In this document: piece after piece, positions 1,732 to 16,670 of the stretch
Layout: each line of letters starts with the position of its first letter
Position numbering within the stretch: position 1 is the stretch's first letter
NCBI RefSeq assembly: GCF_002920915.1
Contig: NZ_PQVF01000007.1
Span: forward strand, 62,001-126,000
DNA length: 64,000 nucleotides
DNA from: Solitalea longa
Lineage (GTDB): Bacteria > Bacteroidota > Bacteroidia > Sphingobacteriales > Sphingobacteriaceae
Direction: 5' to 3'
Notes under the pieces: model-generated
Told to the model about the DNA's origin: nothing
The model's database searches: none
Seen by the model: the letters and a program-made list of their open reading frames with translations, nothing else
Made by a program: the position numbers and the translations under genes

Positions 1732-2274
1732 ATGAAACATACGCTCTCTAAACTACTGTTGTTCTTATTGCTTTTTAGTTTGATGTTCGGCTGTCAAAGT
1801 TCGAGTACTACTGATCCTTCACCCGAATTAACTACCATCATATTGGTAAGACATGCGGAGAAATTGAACCTCGATCCGGATAGCCCATTATCTGAAAAAG
1901 GGGAAAGGAGGGCCAATGATCTGGCCAATTTATTGGATGATGTGCATATTGATGCAGTTTATTCAATTGGCTTTCCGAGATATATAAGTACTGTTCAGCC
2001 ATTATGCGACCGAAAAGGGATCGCTCCAGTTATTTATCAACGTAATGTATATGCCGGGGTGATTGAAACTATTGTAAATAGCTATGAGGGGAAAACGGTG
2101 CTGATTTGTGGTGATACGGAAACGGTTCCCGGAATGTTGAATATCCTCTCAGCATCACAAAAATACTCCGTCCTTAAAGAATCTGATTACACCCATATTT
2201 ACTATGCCTTATCCAGGGATTTAGGTTTATCCGAAATCATAGTTAATACTTACGGAGAAGCAGAAGGTAATTAA
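1732..2274 (+). CDS. Histidine phosphatase superfamily lipoprotein
   Basis: A 180-aa protein with a lipoprotein signal: a hydrophobic stretch, then Cys21 in 'LMFGCQSS'. The mature part begins with the phosphoglycerate-mutase-like catalytic motif 'LVRHAEK', in which the His is the phospho-acceptor, and continues with the expected 'LSEKGERRANDLANLL' segment and 'DAVYSIGFPRY'. The second catalytic histidine of the superfamily is not obvious: the usual 'xxGH' position reads 'LICGDTETVP', so activity may be altered or absent. The location is probably the inner or outer membrane, facing the periplasm. Substrate unknown. It is followed after 10 bp by tRNA-Thr. Confidence 0.85.
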   Translation: MKHTLSKLLLFLLLFSLMFGCQSSSTTDPSPELTTIILVRHAEKLNLDPDSPLSEKGERRANDLANLLDDVHIDAVYSIGFPRYISTVQPLCDRKGIAPVIYQRNVYAGVIETIVNSYEGKTVLICGDTETVPGMLNILSASQKYSVLKESDYTHIYYALSRDLGLSEIIVNTYGEAEGN

Positions 2275-2284
2275 CACTTTAAAA

Positions 2285-2357
2285 GCCGATTTAGCTCAGC
2301 TGGTAGAGCGTCTCATTCGTAATGAGAAGGTCGCAGGTTCGAAACCCGTAGTCGGCT
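2285..2357 (+). tRNA. tRNA-Thr (anticodon CGT)
   Basis: A 73-nt cloverleaf. The acceptor stem GCCGATT pairs with AGTCGGC (one G-T), the D-arm is 'GCTCAGCTGGTAGAGC', and the anticodon stem TCTCA pairs with TGAGA around loop TTCGTAA, giving anticodon CGT for codon ACG. The T-loop is TTCGAAA. The T-stem GCAGG/CCCGT holds one A-C mismatch. CCA is not encoded. The discriminator base (2357) is also the first base, on the + strand, of the stop codon of the convergent gene at 2357-3493. Confidence 0.95.
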
Positions 2358-3493
2358 CAAAAAGCTTCATTCAACGAAATATAAAATCCGGTAGAACGTT
2401 TTTCTCCCGGATTTTGATTTCCTACACCATAATCAAAACGAAGGGTCATACGGGCAACGGGCTCAAACATGTACCTAAAGCCTCCGCCATAATTGGGTTT
2501 TAAATCATTAAAGCTGAAGTTTTGATTCGAAAAAACCATACCCGTACCAACAAACCCTGCAAAGCTTAATCGCGACAACGAAAACCAGCCATGATCTTCT
2601 TGCTTCCCCCAGGGCCTGTACCTGAATTCACTTTGAGCGGCCAACATATGTTGATCGCGATAACGGCCAACATAATAACCCCTCATAATTTGATCACCTC
2701 CAATAAATGGCAGGTAATAGAAGGGAGCCGAACTGCCTTGGGCCGTTTGATAAGCAAATTGAGCACCAACGCACATGGTGGGATCTATTTTAAAAAAATG
2801 CCTTGCATCTAAATTGAAAACAGAGAATTTATAATCATTGATCCCAAGGCTTGTCCAACCAAGCATTGATAAATAACTTCCGGTAGTGGTTGAGTTCTCA
2901 TAATCCCTGTTATCAAAAGCTCCACCATAACCTATAAGCATGCTGTTCCCGCCTTGTTTACCATAGTAATCACCTGTATTAAAAATACCTGCAGGATCAT
3001 CAGCTGTAAATGAATCGTTTTGCACCCATAATCCTAGACCGGCATATAGATCTTTGATGATCTTATGTTTTCCAATAACCTGAAATTTGAAGCGCTTAGA
3101 TGTAATAAGATCCTCATCGCTTTGCCTGGTATCATTGCCTACACCGTAAAAGAATATGGGATAATCAGTGTAAATTCCGTTTACCGTTATGTTCCATATG
3201 TTTTTTGGCGTCCAAATGCTTGACTGCACCGCATACTGTGCCTGATTTTTGACCGTCCACATATTAAAACTGTAAATGAAAGAATTTCGGGTTTCGCGGG
3301 GATCATGGTTGATGAAAAAAGTATAGATAGCGCCAAACCCAAACTGAAACCCGGTTTCGGGAGCATTTCCAACTACAGGATAGGGAACAAACTGGTTTTT
3401 CGTCCTGAAAGACGAATCTGCTTTCTGTGCTTTAGCAGAAATAATAAATAAAAATTGCAAGAATAGCAGAAAGATAAATGGAGAGCGATTCAT
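2357..3493 (-). CDS. BamA/TamA-family outer-membrane beta-barrel protein
   Basis: A 378-aa exported protein. The signal peptide is residues 1-22, ending 'ISAKAQ'. The mature protein is rich in alternating aromatic and polar residues, as in a beta-barrel, and ends in a terminal aromatic (…LNEAF). The motif 'GGDQIMRGYYVGRYRDQ' near residue 265 matches the conserved 'GG…RGY' signature of the surface-antigen (D15/BamA/TamA) barrel. It lacks POTRA domains, so it is the short barrel-only form often annotated as 'outer membrane protein assembly factor' in Bacteroidota. Its real role is unknown. It is downstream of nuoB on the same strand, with a 116-bp gap. Confidence 0.8.
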   Translation of the reverse strand: MNRSPFIFLLFLQFLFIISAKAQKADSSFRTKNQFVPYPVVGNAPETGFQFGFGAIYTFFINHDPRETRNSFIYSFNMWTVKNQAQYAVQSSIWTPKNIWNITVNGIYTDYPIFFYGVGNDTRQSDEDLITSKRFKFQVIGKHKIIKDLYAGLGLWVQNDSFTADDPAGIFNTGDYYGKQGGNSMLIGYGGAFDNRDYENSTTTGSYLSMLGWTSLGINDYKFSVFNLDARHFFKIDPTMCVGAQFAYQTAQGSSAPFYYLPFIGGDQIMRGYYVGRYRDQHMLAAQSEFRYRPWGKQEDHGWFSLSRLSFAGFVGTGMVFSNQNFSFNDLKPNYGGGFRYMFEPVARMTLRFDYGVGNQNPGEKRSTGFYISLNEAF

Positions 3494-3609
3494 CTGTTTT
3501 TACTTACCATAAGATAAGTTTTTTAACAGAAAACTGAAAACATAAAACCGAAGTCGGATATCAATAGTCGGATTTGAGTATTTTCAGACCCCTAAATTTG
3601 AATCTCATA

Positions 3610-4095
3610 TTACATGGAAAAAATACTTTCCTGGCGGATCTTTTTTTGAAGTTCAATGATGCCCCCTATCAATGCTTCCGGACGTGGTGGACAACCCTGA
3701 ACATATACATCAACAGGAATAACCCGGTCAACACCCTTTACAACATGGTAACCATGTTCCCAATACGGACCGCCACAGTTTGAACATGAGCCCATTGAAA
3801 TTACATATCTGGGTTCAGGCATTTGCTCATATAAACGTTTTATACGCTCGGCCATTTTAAAAGTGACAGTTCCCGCAACAATCATAACATCGGCCTGGCG
3901 AGGCGAGGGGCGAGGGAATACTCCCAGTCGATCCAAATCATAGTTAGCTGCCATGGAGCCCATCATTTCAATTGCGCAACAAGCCAATCCAAAACTCACA
4001 GGCCATAAAGAAGACAACCTAGCCCAATTCAACAAGTCATCTACCTTGGTAATAACAACTCCATTACTTTCTACTTTATTTATCAGTTGTTCCAT
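3610..4095 (-). CDS. nuoB: NADH-quinone oxidoreductase subunit B (NuoB)
   Basis: A 161-aa peripheral complex I subunit that carries iron-sulfur cluster N2 and passes electrons to quinone. The cluster ligands are visible: the tandem cysteines in '[10 protein letters not shown]', the Cys in '[11 protein letters not shown]' and the Cys in '[11 protein letters not shown]'. The conserved '[13 protein letters not shown]' segment is intact. It starts 15 bp after the nuoA stop on the same strand, so the two are co-transcribed. Downstream comes an unrelated outer-membrane protein rather than nuoC/nuoD, so the remaining complex I genes must be elsewhere. Confidence 0.97.
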
Positions 4096-4110: not shown

Positions 4111-5769
4111 TTAGTTATTCTCTTCTTTATTTTTCTTAATTGCGGCGGCACTAAAACGAGGTTTATAGGCGTTGGCGACTTTTGGACCTTCAGTTTGCTC
4201 TACTGGTGCTTCGTTACTATTATTCTTATCAGGAACTTCTCCATTTAGCTCAGTACCATTTGCTGTTGATTCAGCATTTTCCTGCTTTTTAAGCATTTGA
4301 GGCTTAAACTTAGGTTTATAAGGGGCTGCAGGTTTTGGAGCTTCGATTTCTTCAACCTTAGCTTCAGCGTTTTCGTTATTAGTTACAGGTGATTGTTCCA
4401 CTGATGCCTCCTCCTGTTTTTTAGTTAACTGAGGCTTAAACTTAGGCTTATAAGGTGCTGCAGGTTTTGGAGCTTCGGTTTCTTCAACCTTAGCTTCAAC
4501 GATGTCAATATTAATTACCGGAGATTCTTCTATTGATGCCTCCTCCTGTTTTTTAGTTAACTGAGGTTTAAACTTAGGCTTATAAGGTGCTGCAGGTTTT
4601 GGAGCTTCGGTTTCTTCAACCTTAGCTTCAACGGTGTCAATATTAATTACCGGAGATTCTTCTATTGATGCCTCCTCCTGTTTTTTAGTTAACTGAGGTT
4701 TAAACTTAGGCTTATAAGGTGCTGCGGGTTTTGGAGCTTCGGTTTCTTCAACCTTAGCTTCAACGGTGTCAATATTAATTACCGGAGATTCTTCTATTGA
4801 TGCCTCCTCCTGTTTTTTAGTTAACTGAGGTTTAAACTTAGGCTTATAAGGTGCTGCGGGTTTTGGAGCTTCGGTTTCTTCAACCTTAGCTTCAGCAGTT
4901 TCGTTAATAGTTACCGGAGATTGTTCAACTGATGGCTCCTCTGACTTTTTAACAAGCTGAGGCTTAAATTTTGGAACATATGCCTGTTTAGGCGGATCTT
5001 CCTGTACAGATTCAGAAGCTTCTGGCTGTATTTCTTTATTTTCTACAGGTTCCTTTTTCGCTAATTGCGGTTTAAACTTAGGTTTATAAGTCGCTGGCTC
5101 TGTTAATTGATTTTCAACTGGTTGAACTGTTTCAGTCTTTACAGTTTTCTCCGTTTCAGCCATTGAATCGGCTTTAGCATTCATTTCTTTTTCAGCTTTT
5201 GCTTTTAAAAAGAATGCTTTTCGCTCCGAGATCTTTTCAACAGCTGGCTCGGCTTCCAAAACTTCCACATTTTCTTGCTGATAGGCTCTTACTTTATAAA
5301 CCTGATTATTGATATTCTGATAGAGCAGGGCAGGAACCTTGGCATCAACAGTAGGTATAACCGGCTGTGGTTTTATCCATTCTAAATCGCCCTTTTTCCA
5401 AACGTATAATAAGCCAACCAATAAAACAGCAATAAATACCGTCATTTCAAAGAAACTTAACCATCCCCAGGCAGGGGCAGCTGCAATAAGTTCCTTGTTT
5501 CCAAAAACAGTAGACCATGGGAACAAAAACACCAGTTCTACATCAAACAAAAGAAACACCAAAGCAATTACATAAAATCGCATGTTAAATTGGATCCACG
5601 AACTACCGGTAGGATCTTCACCACACTCATAAGTAGTTAATTTTTCAGGATTAGGTTTATTGGGGCTGATTAATTTCGACATGAAAAGCGTAAACAGTAC
5701 AAACCCGGTTCCTAAAACAAGGAAGAGTAATATCGATCCGAATGCTGATATTTGCGTGCTTTGAGGCAT
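4111..5769 (-). CDS. nuoA: NADH-quinone oxidoreductase subunit A (NuoA) with a long repetitive C-terminal extension
   Basis: The first ~130 residues are a normal NuoA: three membrane segments at about 10-32, 66-88 and 105-125, with the conserved 'YECGEDPTGSSW' and 'FYVIALVFLLFDVE' motifs. NuoA usually ends at 120-140 aa, but this reading frame continues to 552 aa. The extra ~400 residues are charged and Pro/Lys/Glu-rich, with seven KPKFKPQ-type motifs ('PYKPKFKPQLTKK') plus a last degenerate one. The extension looks disordered. No stop codon or frameshift separates it from NuoA, so it appears to be a true fusion. It begins the nuoA-nuoB pair. The tail function is unknown. Confidence 0.93.
   Translation of the reverse strand: MPQSTQISAFGSILLFLVLGTGFVLFTLFMSKLISPNKPNPEKLTTYECGEDPTGSSWIQFNMRFYVIALVFLLFDVELVFLFPWSTVFGNKELIAAAPAWGWLSFFEMTVFIAVLLVGLLYVWKKGDLEWIKPQPVIPTVDAKVPALLYQNINNQVYKVRAYQQENVEVLEAEPAVEKISERKAFFLKAKAEKEMNAKADSMAETEKTVKTETVQPVENQLTEPATYKPKFKPQLAKKEPVENKEIQPEASESVQEDPPKQAYVPKFKPQLVKKSEEPSVEQSPVTINETAEAKVEETEAPKPAAPYKPKFKPQLTKKQEEASIEESPVINIDTVEAKVEETEAPKPAAPYKPKFKPQLTKKQEEASIEESPVINIDTVEAKVEETEAPKPAAPYKPKFKPQLTKKQEEASIEESPVINIDIVEAKVEETEAPKPAAPYKPKFKPQLTKKQEEASVEQSPVTNNENAEAKVEEIEAPKPAAPYKPKFKPQMLKKQENAESTANGTELNGEVPDKNNSNEAPVEQTEGPKVANAYKPRFSAAAIKKNKEENN
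4310..4910 (-). repeat. In-frame tandem repeat in the nuoA tail (132-bp period)
   Basis: The word TCCTCCTGTT recurs on the + strand at 4409, 4541, 4673 and 4805, exactly 132 bp (44 codons) apart. The central units are nearly identical at the DNA level. Outlying units toward each end (near 4300 and around 4960-5090) keep the protein motif but have diverged. The period is a multiple of three, so copy-number change would keep the frame. Confidence 0.95.
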
Positions 5770-12460: not shown

Positions 12461-14497
12461 ATGAAGAAAAGTAAATTAGTTTGGTATGTATTGATTATTA
12501 GCTCAATAGCTACCACAACGAAAGCCCAAACCACTATCCGTAAATTCATCGACAAAGCCAATATGGATGAATCGGTTAGCCCAAGAGTAAATTTCTATCA
12601 ATATGCCAATGGAGGATGGTTGAAAAACAATCCTATTCCTCCAACAGAAACGCGCTGGGGAAGCTTTAATGAATTAGTTTCAAGTACCAACCAGGTTTTA
12701 AAAGGAATTTTAAAAGAGGCTGCTGATAAAAATGCCACTTATGGTAGTAATAACCAATTAGTGGGTGATTTTTTTGCAAGCGGAATGGATAGCGTTGAAA
12801 TTGAGAACGCCGGTATTACGCCTGTTCATAACTTATTTAGCGAAATTAAAACCGTTAATTCTACCAGGGATCTATTAAGTGAAATAACAAGCCTGCACAA
12901 ATCGGGTATTCCTGTAGCTTTCAACTTTTCGGTTTACCAGGATGATAAAAACAGTTCACAGGTAATTGTTCAGTTATCGCAGGGAGGATTGGGTTTACCT
13001 GACCGCGACTATTACACCAACCTTCTTGATGAACGCTATGAAAACCTTCGTACCGAATATGTTAAACACATGGTCAACATGTTTAAGATCTTTGGCGATG
13101 ATAACAAAAACGCAAAAAAGAATGCAGAAGCGGTAATGCGCCTCGAAACTTCATTAGCGGGTGCTTCAATGACCAGAGTTGAACGTCGTGACCCGAACAA
13201 GAACTATCACAAACTAAATATGATGGAGCTTCAGAAAATAGCTCCAATGACCACCTGGAAAGATATTCTGAGTGATTATACCGGTCAGGAGGTAAAAGAA
13301 GTGATCGTTAGGCAAACTGAATTTTTTAAAGAGTTCGACCGTCAGCTAGTGGCAACACCAGTTAACGAATGGAAGGCCTATTTAAAATGGACAGTTATAA
13401 GAACAGCTGCACCGTATTTACATTCAAAGGCGGTGGATGAGCACTTTAACTTCTATGGCAAAATTTTAACCGGACAAAAAGTTATGAAACCACGTGCCGA
13501 CAGGGTTTCGATGGTAATTGATAATGCGATGGGAGAGGTTTTAGGTCGTATGTACGTATCCAGATACTTTAAGCCTTTGGCCAAAAGCCGCATGCTTGAT
13601 CTGATCAAGAATCTTACAACAACCTACGAAGAACGCATCAATAGATTGGATTGGATGAGTGATGCTACCAAACAAAAAGCCCTCACCAAATTGCATGCAT
13701 TCATCCGAAAAATTGGTTACCCTGATGTCTGGAAAGACTATTCAACTGTTCACATCAGCCGTACCTCTTACTTTGGAAACGTTTTGGAATGCAATCGGTA
13801 CGATTTCAATTACATGGTGAACAAATTGGGTAAACCTGTTAATAAAGCTGAATGGGGAATGAGCGCACCAACTATAAATGCCTATTACAATCCGATGGTT
13901 AATGAGATCGTATTTCCTGCAGGGATCTTGCAATCGCCATTCTTTGATTTTAATGCAGATGATGCAGTAAACTATGGAGGAATTGGTTGCGTAATTGGTC
14001 ACGAAATGACCCATGGTTTCGATGACCAGGGACGCCAGTATGATGCAGAAGGTAATTTAAATGACTGGTGGACAAAAGACGATGCCACACGTTTTAAAGA
14101 ACTGGCCTATAGAGTTGTTGAGCAATACAACAGCTATACTGTTTTAAAAGGATCGATGAATGTTAATGGACAACTCACATTAGGTGAAAACCTTGCAGAT
14201 CTGGGCGGAATCAATATCGCGTTTGAAGCTTTCAAAAAAACCAATCAGGCTAAAACAGGGGAGCAGATTGATGGATTTACTCCTGAGCAACGTTTCTTCT
14301 TGTCCTGGGCCCAAATCTGGAGGTCAAACATCACTGATGAAGCGCAGGCTCAACGGATTGTTACCGATCCACATTCGCCGGGGATTTACCGTTGCAATGG
14401 CCCGGTAAGTAATATGCCCGAGTTTTATGAAGCTTTTGGCATTCAAAAAGGCGATCCGATGTGGAAAAAACCTGGCGAACAGGTTAAAGTCTGGTAA
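12461..14497 (+). CDS. M13 family zinc metallopeptidase (neprilysin/PepO-like), first of a tandem pair
   Basis: A 678-aa exported peptidase with signal peptide of about 22 aa ending 'TTKAQ'. The M13 N-terminal block 'PRVNFYQYANGGWLKNNPIP' is present, then 'NAYYNPMVNEIVFPAGI'. The zinc site is complete: His514 and His518 in 'HEMTHGFDD', with the third ligand Glu576 in 'GENLADLGG'. The C-terminus ends in the conserved aromatic 'VW'. The protein has exactly the length of its neighbour (14634-16670) and close similarity throughout, so the pair arose by tandem duplication. It probably degrades oligopeptides in the periplasm. Confidence 0.95.
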   Translation: MKKSKLVWYVLIISSIATTTKAQTTIRKFIDKANMDESVSPRVNFYQYANGGWLKNNPIPPTETRWGSFNELVSSTNQVLKGILKEAADKNATYGSNNQLVGDFFASGMDSVEIENAGITPVHNLFSEIKTVNSTRDLLSEITSLHKSGIPVAFNFSVYQDDKNSSQVIVQLSQGGLGLPDRDYYTNLLDERYENLRTEYVKHMVNMFKIFGDDNKNAKKNAEAVMRLETSLAGASMTRVERRDPNKNYHKLNMMELQKIAPMTTWKDILSDYTGQEVKEVIVRQTEFFKEFDRQLVATPVNEWKAYLKWTVIRTAAPYLHSKAVDEHFNFYGKILTGQKVMKPRADRVSMVIDNAMGEVLGRMYVSRYFKPLAKSRMLDLIKNLTTTYEERINRLDWMSDATKQKALTKLHAFIRKIGYPDVWKDYSTVHISRTSYFGNVLECNRYDFNYMVNKLGKPVNKAEWGMSAPTINAYYNPMVNEIVFPAGILQSPFFDFNADDAVNYGGIGCVIGHEMTHGFDDQGRQYDAEGNLNDWWTKDDATRFKELAYRVVEQYNSYTVLKGSMNVNGQLTLGENLADLGGINIAFEAFKKTNQAKTGEQIDGFTPEQRFFLSWAQIWRSNITDEAQAQRIVTDPHSPGIYRCNGPVSNMPEFYEAFGIQKGDPMWKKPGEQVKVW

Positions 14498-14633: not shown

Positions 14634-16670
14634 ATGAAGAAAAGAGAAAGAATATTAATTAATTCCGCATTACTGCTAACGGTTTCGGCATCAGTATTTG
14701 CACAAAGCCGCACACAATTTATCGATCCCAAAAACATGGATCAAAGTATTAAGCCAGGCGACAATTTCTACAAATATGCTAATGGGAATTGGTTAAAAAC
14801 CAATCCAATTCCGGCTTCTGAAACCCGATGGGGAAGCTTTAGTGAACTTCAAGAGTTTAATTACAACGCTCTTTATAAATTATTAAACCAAGCTGCAAAC
14901 ACCAAGAACGCTCCAAAAGGAAGCACTATTCAAAAGGTGGGCGATTTTTATAAAAGCGGTATGGATTCAGTTGGCATTGAAAAAAAAGGTTATGAGCCAA
15001 TTAAAGCCGATTTAAAAAGAATAGATGGCTTAACAGATCATAAAAGCATTATTAATGAAATAATCTTTCATGCCAATAATGGAGGAAGCCTGTTGTTCGG
15101 AATTTTTGCCGCTCAGGATGCAAAGAAGAGCACCGATGTTGTTCCTCATTTGAGCAATGGGGGCTTAGGCTTGCCTGATAGGGATTATTATTTAAAAGAT
15201 GATGATCGCTCGAAAAAAATCAGGGAAGAATATGTAAAGCATATTACCAATATGTTTAAGCTGATTGGCAACAATGAAGCTGATGCAAAAATCAAAGCTG
15301 AGAATATTTTAAAAATGGAAACAGCTTTGGCACAAGCAACCATGTCGAGAGTGGAGATGCGCGATCCTAACAAACGCTACAACAAGCTTTCGTATGCAAA
15401 CTTAAACGCCATTAGCCCATTAATTGATTGGAAATTTGTAGCTACCTCGGTGGGCATAAATGGATATGATACATTGATTGTCTCGCAACCAAATTTCTTT
15501 AAAGAAGTTAACAATCAACTTTCATCAACCTCAATTGATACATGGAAAGCATATATTAAATGGAATATTCTCAGAAATGCCGCTCCTTTTTTAAGCAGTA
15601 GCTTTATAAAAGAAAACTTCAATTTTTATAGTACGGTGCTGCAGGGGCAGAAATCACCTAAACCACGTTGGAAAAATGTGATGAACGTGGTTGACGGAAA
15701 TATCGGTGAATTATTAGGTCAGATGTATGTGGATCAATATTTCAAACCCGAAGCTAAGCAGCGTATGATGAGCATGATCGATAATATGTCGAACACATTT
15801 GCTGATCGTATTCAACGTTTGGATTGGATGAGCGACGATACCAAAAAACAGGCATTGTACAAATTGAAATCATTTACACGTAAAATTGGTTACCCCGACA
15901 AATGGAAAGACTATACCGCCATTTCAATTGTTGCCGATAACTATATTTCCAATGTTCGTTCATGTGCAAAATGGTCACGTCAGGAGAACTTAAAAAAACT
16001 AGGTAAACCGGTTGACAAAAACGAATGGGGTATGACACCTCCAACAGTTAATGCCTATTACAGTCCAACTAAAAATGAGATCGTTTTCCCGGCAGGCATT
16101 TTACAATTCCCATTCTTCGATTTTGGTGCTGATGATGCTATAAATTACGGTGGAATTGGAGCAGTGATCGGTCATGAAATGACCCATGGATTTGATGATT
16201 CGGGAAGTAAGTTTGATGCTGAAGGAAATCTTAAAAACTGGTGGACCGATGATGATGGTGTTCAGTTCAAAAAAAGAACGCAAATGGTTGTAGATCAATA
16301 TAATGCATATACCGTTATAAATGGTACGATGAATGTAAATGGTCAATTAACACTGGGTGAAAACCTTGCTGATTTAGGCGGATTAAATATCGCTTATGAA
16401 GCGTTTATGAAAACCAAAGAAGGTCAAAGTACTAATAAAACAGACGGTTTTACACCTGTACAGCGTTTCTTCTTATCATGGGCGCAAGTATGGCGTGCAA
16501 ATATTACCGACGAGGCGCAGGCCCAACGAATTTTAACAGATCCACACTCACCTGGAATGTATCGTTGTAACGGTCCGCTCACAAATATGCCAGAATTTTA
16601 CCAGGCATTTGATGTAAAAGAAGGCGACCCAATGTGGAAACCTGAAAATGCAAGGGCTAAAGTTTGGTAA
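14634..16670 (+). CDS. M13 family zinc metallopeptidase, second of a tandem pair
   Basis: A 678-aa paralogue of the preceding gene, with a signal peptide ending 'SVFAQ'. The zinc ligands sit at identical positions: His514/His518 in 'HEMTHGFDDS' and Glu576 in 'GENLADLGG'. The substrate-binding 'NAYYSPTKNEIVFPAGI' block is conserved. The two copies differ most in the first 250 residues, the helical cap that limits substrate size in M13 enzymes, which suggests divergence in peptide preference. Separate terminators after each gene show they are independent transcription units. Confidence 0.95.
   Translation: MKKRERILINSALLLTVSASVFAQSRTQFIDPKNMDQSIKPGDNFYKYANGNWLKTNPIPASETRWGSFSELQEFNYNALYKLLNQAANTKNAPKGSTIQKVGDFYKSGMDSVGIEKKGYEPIKADLKRIDGLTDHKSIINEIIFHANNGGSLLFGIFAAQDAKKSTDVVPHLSNGGLGLPDRDYYLKDDDRSKKIREEYVKHITNMFKLIGNNEADAKIKAENILKMETALAQATMSRVEMRDPNKRYNKLSYANLNAISPLIDWKFVATSVGINGYDTLIVSQPNFFKEVNNQLSSTSIDTWKAYIKWNILRNAAPFLSSSFIKENFNFYSTVLQGQKSPKPRWKNVMNVVDGNIGELLGQMYVDQYFKPEAKQRMMSMIDNMSNTFADRIQRLDWMSDDTKKQALYKLKSFTRKIGYPDKWKDYTAISIVADNYISNVRSCAKWSRQENLKKLGKPVDKNEWGMTPPTVNAYYSPTKNEIVFPAGILQFPFFDFGADDAINYGGIGAVIGHEMTHGFDDSGSKFDAEGNLKNWWTDDDGVQFKKRTQMVVDQYNAYTVINGTMNVNGQLTLGENLADLGGLNIAYEAFMKTKEGQSTNKTDGFTPVQRFFLSWAQVWRANITDEAQAQRILTDPHSPGMYRCNGPLTNMPEFYQAFDVKEGDPMWKPENARAKVW

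Follow-up and report, generated by a model that had tools for sequence, protein, structure and literature searches.

The NDH-1 complexes of cyanobacteria and chloroplasts carry extra subunits on the ferredoxin side, including NdhS. Disordered tails that alternate stickers with spacers form a general class of protein extension. Passages of one published study (PMC11238625) pose the question of which donor delivers electrons directly to the 11-subunit form of complex I, and report an unsuccessful search for a common donor. Passages of a second study (PMC7002350) describe the NUO complex of Bacteroides fragilis as lacking NuoEFG, as not using NADH, and as likely oxidizing an unknown donor. Here we describe a gene of Solitalea longa that encodes a NuoA-type protein with a long repetitive tail, together with a small protein, termed P2, that co-occurs with this type of NuoA. 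The gene lies in a window of 64,000 nucleotides, which is the whole stretch of DNA that was analysed.

A NuoA-type protein with a long repeat tail

The gene is located at 5769..4111 on the minus strand (stop codon included) and encodes 552 amino acids without an internal stop; the coordinates and length reported for it by a first-pass annotation are correct. Family PF00507 covers residues 25-131 (E 8.4e-36, 122.6 bits compared to a Pfam cut-off of 23.3). Three transmembrane helices are assigned by homology to this NuoA core (residues 1-131, 5377..5769, minus strand). A proximal tail then spans approximately residues 132-171 (5257..5376, minus strand) and is conserved in Sphingobacteriaceae NuoA proteins of the same type, with the consensus IKPxPxxPxVxxxxPxxxYxxINxxxYxVRxF. 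The remainder, approximately residues 172-552 (4114..5256, minus strand), forms a distal tail of low pLDDT in which a motif scan locates eight copies of the pattern Y-x-P-[KR]-F-x-[PA].

Motif 1 (YKPKFKP) begins at residue 228 (5068..5088) and motif 2 (YVPKFKP) at residue 264 (4960..4980). Motif 3 (YKPKFKP, residue 308, 4828..4848) opens the first of three near-identical units, and is followed by motifs 4 (residue 352, 4696..4716), 5 (residue 396, 4564..4584), 6 (residue 440, 4432..4452) and 7 (residue 484, 4300..4320). Motif 8, a terminal variant that reads YKPRFSA, is found at residue 535 (4147..4167); all eight are on the minus strand. The first-pass annotation had counted at least seven KPKFKPQ motifs. 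The tail does carry eight copies, of which six contain KPKFKPQ exactly and seven contain PKFKPQ, the exceptions being unit 2 (VPKFKPQ) and unit 8 (YKPRFSA). Motifs 2-7 (residues 264 to 484) are spaced by exactly 44 codons, or 132 bp, and TRF reports a corresponding tandem array at 4298-4968 (minus strand) with a 132-bp period, 5.1 copies, 93% matches and a score of 1074. Thus, the exact spacing that had been noted for four units extends to six, but near-identity in DNA is confined to units 3, 4 and 5 (98.5-99.2%), with unit 6 matching them at 89% and unit 2 at 80-81%. Recent expansion or conversion therefore appears limited to three units. A DNA pattern encoding PKFKP has eight matches in the whole genome, seven of them inside this gene, compared to three for the reversed control pattern.

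The 420 tail residues include 66 K/R and 75 D/E, 12% proline and no cysteine, in keeping with the earlier description of a long, highly charged and probably disordered repeat tail. A single-sequence AlphaFold model of the full-length protein has a mean pLDDT of 45.5, with almost every residue from 205 to 552 scoring below 50 and no helix between residues 203 and 541. Although a model of this kind is weak evidence, the tail is probably disordered.

All four Solitalea genomes sampled encode the tail, so it is not unique to S. longa. The proteins are 552, 469, 435 and 423 amino acids long and carry 8, 7, 6 and 6 motifs, respectively, which bears out the expectation that the number of units varies. 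Overlapping pattern matches overcount these motifs (9-15), and the counts of 6-8 are those of a non-overlapping scan. Two of the four genomes are single-contig assemblies (G002 and G003), each with six motifs, and the count of eight units comes from a single assembly, the 36-contig draft of S. longa.

Directly downstream of the tailed NuoA gene is a NuoB gene of the same set (3610..4095, minus strand; PF01058, E 1.1e-28), whose product carries the cysteines CC...GSCSNC...GCPPRPE. Elsewhere in the window, two adjacent genes on the plus strand (12461-14497 and 14634-16670) encode look-alike proteins of 678 amino acids, putative M13-type metallopeptidases that are probably a tandem duplication.

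The tailed NuoA belongs to a third complex I set

The S. longa genome encodes three NuoA, three NuoD and three NuoH proteins, but only two NuoF proteins. Two of its three complex I sets are operons that include NuoE, NuoF and NuoG, and both NuoF genes reside there. The third set is dispersed over three places, comprising the tailed NuoA with NuoB, NuoC with NuoD, and NuoH through NuoN, and none of these genes has NuoE, NuoF or NuoG beside it (NuoE and NuoG being judged by neighbourhood alone). The two other NuoA proteins of the genome are 124 and 140 amino acids in length.

Gene order in relatives indicates that the first two parts of the third set belong together. In seven of 16 NuoA loci from Sphingobacteriaceae other than Solitalea, several of which end too early to show NuoC, this gene starts 3.0-3.4 kb from NuoB. 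The genes between NuoB and NuoC in one such locus, which presumably encode PurK, PurE, a DUF179-like protein and PdxH, also precede NuoC in S. longa. Moreover, NuoA, NuoB, NuoC and NuoD are contiguous in two genomes of family f2. The NuoH-NuoN cluster is placed in the third set by elimination only. With this assignment, NuoA, B, C, D, H, I, J, K, L, M and N are all present, and the dispersed arrangement without NuoE, NuoF or NuoG alongside suggests that the tailed NuoA is part of an 11-subunit complex I lacking the NADH module. The first-pass annotation had called this protein an essential respiratory subunit, a description that finds no support in a genome with three complex I sets, where the tailed NuoA belongs to the dispersed one.

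A similar imbalance is evident across the family. We cross-tabulated NuoD, NuoF, NuoA and P2 in 121 family genomes (G000-G120), the NuoD and NuoF searches having taken in 141. The number of NuoD matches exceeds that of NuoF matches by one in 88 of the 93 genomes with the tailed NuoA type, and by two or three in the other five. Among the 28 genomes without this type, the difference is zero in 25 and one in the other three. Four of the odd rows have extra NuoD matches and come from assemblies of 230, 150, 420 and 90 contigs (G010, G022, G044 and G055, respectively), three lack a NuoF match and come from genomes that are 87, 71 and 60% complete (G084, G011 and G078, respectively), and the last is G025. 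Two Sphingobacteriaceae genomes with a listed completeness of 99 and 100% (G038 and G108, respectively) have the tailed NuoA type, one NuoD match and no NuoF match. These two organisms seem to have no complex I other than the form that lacks the NADH module, which therefore seems to work in the absence of NuoF.

The same NuoA type ends in a single motif in most relatives

A search of 200 relatives recovered this NuoA type in 93 of 121 family genomes and in four of 79 others, where a best E value of 2.2e-46 or lower served as the cut and the next match was at 9.5e-30. For motif comparison, a subset of the matches comprising 77 NuoA and 73 P2 sequences was read, with 57 genomes contributing a pair. 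Outside Solitalea, NuoA proteins of this type are mostly 190-220 amino acids long and usually end in one motif resembling KPAFKPxFKK (generally KPxFKPxFKK), a feature overlooked by the first-pass annotation. Of the 73 non-Solitalea tails, 66 carry at least one motif, 60 carry exactly one and seven carry none. The average is 0.99 motifs per tail, compared to 0.12 in composition shuffles, and in the short tails the distance from motif start to C terminus has a median of 10 residues.

At the DNA level, a PxFKPxFK pattern has 66 matches in 54 of 141 family genomes versus 24 for the reversed pattern, and no match in Solitalea, whose units read PKFKPQ. Thirty of the matching loci were fetched, and the pattern lies in NuoA in 11, in P2 in seven and in other frames in 12. 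A different ending was seen in the NuoA proteins of genus g10 (L110) and family f40 (L108), which finish with an APIK...IIKK stretch that resembles the P2 repeats of family f2.

A companion protein, P2, carries the repeats in other genera

P2 is a small protein that begins with MTFEEFFxKKKIDLxxL...MGEKSFDHxKKFWFNKLR and continues with repeats such as KPAFKPRFKAGVTK set in acidic linkers. Its N-terminal domain is 55 residues long and helical, and the repeats are carried C-terminally in most of the Sphingobacteriaceae sequences read. An AlphaFold model based on an alignment of 20 sequences places five helices over residues 3-54, with block pLDDT values of 83-92. Outside Solitalea, P2 tails average 4.35 motifs versus 0.15 in composition shuffles; 59 of the 69 tails have two or more, nine have none, and the maximum is 14. 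This largest count is found at L150 (G073), where a P2 of 656 amino acids carries fourteen units, many of them near-identical in protein sequence. In Solitalea, P2 is only 100-102 amino acids long with a single terminal motif of the GYKPLFRKK type, and the repeats reside on NuoA instead. It had escaped the first-pass annotation that another protein bears the repeats in other genera, and that this protein co-occurs with NuoA.

The distributions of P2 and the tailed NuoA type agree in 119 of the 121 family genomes, 92 having both and 27 having neither. A naive hypergeometric calculation that ignores relatedness gives approximately 1e-24 for this association. One discordant genome (G025) has P2 without the NuoA type, which is probably an assembly gap given its 360 contigs and its two NuoD versus one NuoF. 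The other (G026) has the NuoA type without P2 and is 85% complete. All sampled genomes lack both proteins in genera g5, g9, g12, g13 and g17 (g9 and g12 being represented by one genome each), and genus g21 is mixed. In a class-wide sample of 295 genomes searched with profiles (NuoA cut at E 1.8e-48 or lower, next match 2.2e-35), the NuoA type is present in 22 and P2 in 29, with 21 in common from nine families. The eight genomes with P2 only are all from family f43 and have weak scores (4.5e-6 to 3.8e-10), and a single genome (G167) has the NuoA type with no P2 match. At one f43 locus (L304, G220), a P2-like domain is encoded that is diverged and free of repeats; the family lacks the tailed NuoA type, and this domain may mark a wider P2 superfamily.

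More distant P2 proteins vary in their tails. In eight of 11 outgroup loci, P2 consists of the bare domain, and in three f2 genomes (L305, L313 and L314) it carries repeats of the types APIKLAPGAKPxLKK, KLPLKAKPVIP and PLPKKKLPLKK instead of FKPRF. The tail therefore appears dispensable for P2, and the basic character of the outgroup repeats is kept more than their sequence.

Searches for described relatives of P2 gave no significant Pfam or NCBIfam match (the best Pfam E value, 0.0076 in two of 19 members, was taken as chance) and no significant match of the P2 profile to PDB chains (best E 0.62). Likewise, the P2 model has no solved match by Foldseek (best E 9.2) or by VIA-align, which compared it with five chains only. 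Among the papers listed in literature searches, judged by titles and abstract openings, none concerned P2 or the NuoA tail, and no listed title on such a tail appeared in searches for NuoA C-terminal extensions or for NuoA of Solitalea or Sphingobacteriaceae. Matches listed for the motif strings KPKFKP, FKPRFK, FKPKFK and KPRFKP were unrelated, as judged by title.

Across 168 P2 loci of 1.6-12 kb each, in which some places are represented twice, a nuo gene is present at a single locus (L310), where NuoD lies approximately 3.7 kb away. Frequent neighbours of P2 are what we presume to be an epimerase gene or a YebC-like gene.

The distal tail of Solitalea NuoA resembles P2 tails

We compared the tails by phmmer using best-domain scores, as whole-sequence scores add up repeated copies. 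The distal NuoA tails of Solitalea reach 35.5-47.5 bits against P2 tails of other genera, but only 11.4-16.1 bits against NuoA tails of other genera and at most 7.0 bits with shuffled sequences. The first 40 tail residues, which make up the proximal part, score 33.1-37.7 bits against NuoA tails of other genera versus 7.3 bits or less against P2 tails. Individual motif units were also classified by motif profiles. When the genus concerned is left out, these profiles assign 267 of 278 units from P2 and 57 of 71 from NuoA to the right protein. With protein-end information omitted, all 26 Solitalea NuoA units scored are classed as P2-type by margins of 5.1-34.8 bits (26 of 27 were scored, one unit of G001 being missed by the pattern). 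Together, these results indicate that the NuoA tail is P2-like after approximately residue 171. Transfer of the tail from P2 to NuoA would be the simplest account of these sequence similarities, and convergence is a possible alternative.

Support for a full reciprocal exchange of tails is one-sided. The NuoA half of such an exchange is well supported, but the case for a NuoA-type end on Solitalea P2 is weak. All four Solitalea P2 units are classed as NuoA-type without end information (-1.8 to -12.6 bits), but only two of four with it, and the last 22 residues of these proteins score 5.9-10.5 bits against NuoA, 6.7-9.4 bits against P2 and up to 10.0 bits with shuffled sequences.

Codon differences among the 27 Solitalea units from four species are unevenly distributed over the motif. 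In 272 between-species pairs for each position, which are not independent since the units share descent, all differences at positions 3 (P) and 5 (F) are synonymous (157 and 73, respectively). Position 2 is free, with 139 nonsynonymous differences among between-species unit pairs. This pattern fits selection on the peptide.

Possible functions of the tail and P2

We favour, with somewhat better than even confidence, a model in which P2 would serve the 11-subunit complex I as an accessory factor, and in which the NuoA tail would be a multivalent docking arm in the cytoplasm that works with P2. In this model, the tail would be a disordered arm with six to eight basic-aromatic-proline stickers of the YKPKFKPQ type separated by acidic spacers, a composition that suggests weak, multivalent docking. 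The C terminus of NuoA is cytoplasmic in known complex I structures, and the sequence KKGDLEWIK that follows the third NuoA helix fits the positive-inside rule. From this topology, the tail probably hangs beside the peripheral arm, at the position of the missing NADH module. In most Sphingobacteriaceae read, P2 supplies the repeats and NuoA one terminal copy, and in Solitalea the roles are reversed, with a P2-type tail on NuoA. The same kind of arm can reside on NuoA or on P2, two proteins that co-occur, which suggests that they are part of one assembly and that having the arm counts for more than the identity of its carrier. In this model we infer that P2 is physically associated with the complex, that the tail is cytoplasmic, as the known topology of NuoA implies, and that its function is docking. 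A docking-type role, which the first-pass annotation also suggested, seems the likeliest reading of the tail. Against association of P2 with the complex are the near absence of nuo genes from P2 loci (one in 168), the P2 relatives of f43 genomes without the NuoA type, and the reverse case of G167. Against a need for the motif are the seven of 73 non-Solitalea NuoA tails that have none.

Several other explanations deserve consideration. Mis-assembly, or fusion with a neighbouring frame, could be suspected in a draft of 36 contigs, as short reads resolve near-exact repeats of approximately 670 bp poorly, but the frame is open throughout and the tail recurs in all four Solitalea genomes, including the two single-contig assemblies. 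An artefact is thus ruled out for the tail as such, and is very improbable as a general explanation. Alternatively, the tail might be a passive, tolerated extension whose length changes through replication slippage. Slippage or conversion has recently occurred in units 3-5, tail lengths vary widely, P2 repeats expand as well (to 656 amino acids), and some NuoA tails are motif-free. We nevertheless regard passivity as rather improbable, since the P and F of the motif are invariant across the 27 units from the four species even though their codons vary, 66 of 73 non-Solitalea tails retain at least one motif, and the presence of the NuoA type goes with that of P2. It is also conceivable, if on balance unlikely, that the stickers bind acidic lipid or the acidic spacers, and thereby anchor the complex to the membrane or cluster complexes as a condensate, the latter an idea of the first-pass annotation. 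The near-balanced charge of the tail and the alternation of basic-aromatic motifs with acidic spacers would be compatible with this possibility, and the f2 repeats of P2, which keep a basic-hydrophobic-proline character rather than a sequence, suit low-specificity binding. However, membrane binding or clustering alone does not account for the single motif with which short NuoA tails end.

A more specific proposal is that the tail and P2 recruit a donor that replaces the NADH module, such as an acidic ferredoxin, a flavodoxin or a flavoprotein. This idea, which we consider speculative and unlikely as it stands, is consistent with the lack of NuoE, NuoF and NuoG beside the third set and with the two genomes that have the NuoA type and no NuoF match. 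In addition, the four best PDB matches of the NuoA profile are NdhC-type chains from cyanobacterial or chloroplast NDH, and passages of the literature (PMC11238625, PMC7002350) leave open which donor feeds such complexes directly. POR_N, the only family searched as a sign of a ferredoxin source (E<=1e-10), is found in 17 of 94 genomes with the NuoA type or P2 and in none of 27 with neither (G000-G120). However, only 16 of 93 genomes with the NuoA type have it, and none of the four Solitalea genomes does, which argues against ferredoxin from a 2-oxoacid:ferredoxin oxidoreductase as the general donor. Nor was a redox partner gene seen beside P2 or NuoA in the loci read, save for one. At this locus (L182), from a genome of another family (G146), a gene at 2153-3457 (+) that presumably encodes a type II NADH dehydrogenase adjoins P2 at 3533-3787 (-). 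This neighbourhood, if conserved elsewhere, would bear on the electron donor. An extension of the docking model, which we regard as doubtful, holds that P2 and the tail might constitute an electron-input dock, with P2 as an adaptor at the place of NuoE, NuoF and NuoG and the sticker arm capturing a soluble donor. If all that counts is that the complex has the arm, evolution could have put it on NuoA in Solitalea.

Comparison with known systems

Like the described 11-subunit complex I, the S. longa set includes NuoA-D and NuoH-N with no NuoE, NuoF or NuoG beside them, and its genome has one NuoD more than NuoF. The S. longa genes differ in being split over three places, and neither a tailed or motif-ended NuoA nor P2 is mentioned in the consulted passages of PMC11238625 and PMC7002350. 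As these passages leave open which donor serves a complex I without the NADH module, P2 is of interest as a concrete candidate partner, based on its co-occurrence with NuoA and the type of tail they have in common. The occurrence of the repeat tail on either of two proteins amounts to a natural experiment, suggesting action in one assembly.

Relative to the NuoA/ND3/NdhC family (PF00507), the S. longa protein has a core match at residues 25-131 with NuoB directly next to its gene, but adds a C-terminal repeat tail of approximately 420 residues to a protein that is 110-154 amino acids long in the 30 matched solved sequences, apart from one of 279 amino acids with its match at 178-277. Cyanobacterial and chloroplast NDH-1 is similar in being a complex I without an NADH module and with small extra proteins, and its NuoA homologues are the best PDB matches of the NuoA profile. 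The two differ in that P2 has no significant match among solved chains or by Foldseek. Finally, the tail shares with sticker-and-spacer tails in general its short basic-aromatic-proline motifs and its acidic, probably flexible spacers. The Solitalea arm is set apart from them by its location on a subunit of a respiratory complex, and by being of a kind that has been common to two proteins in evolution.
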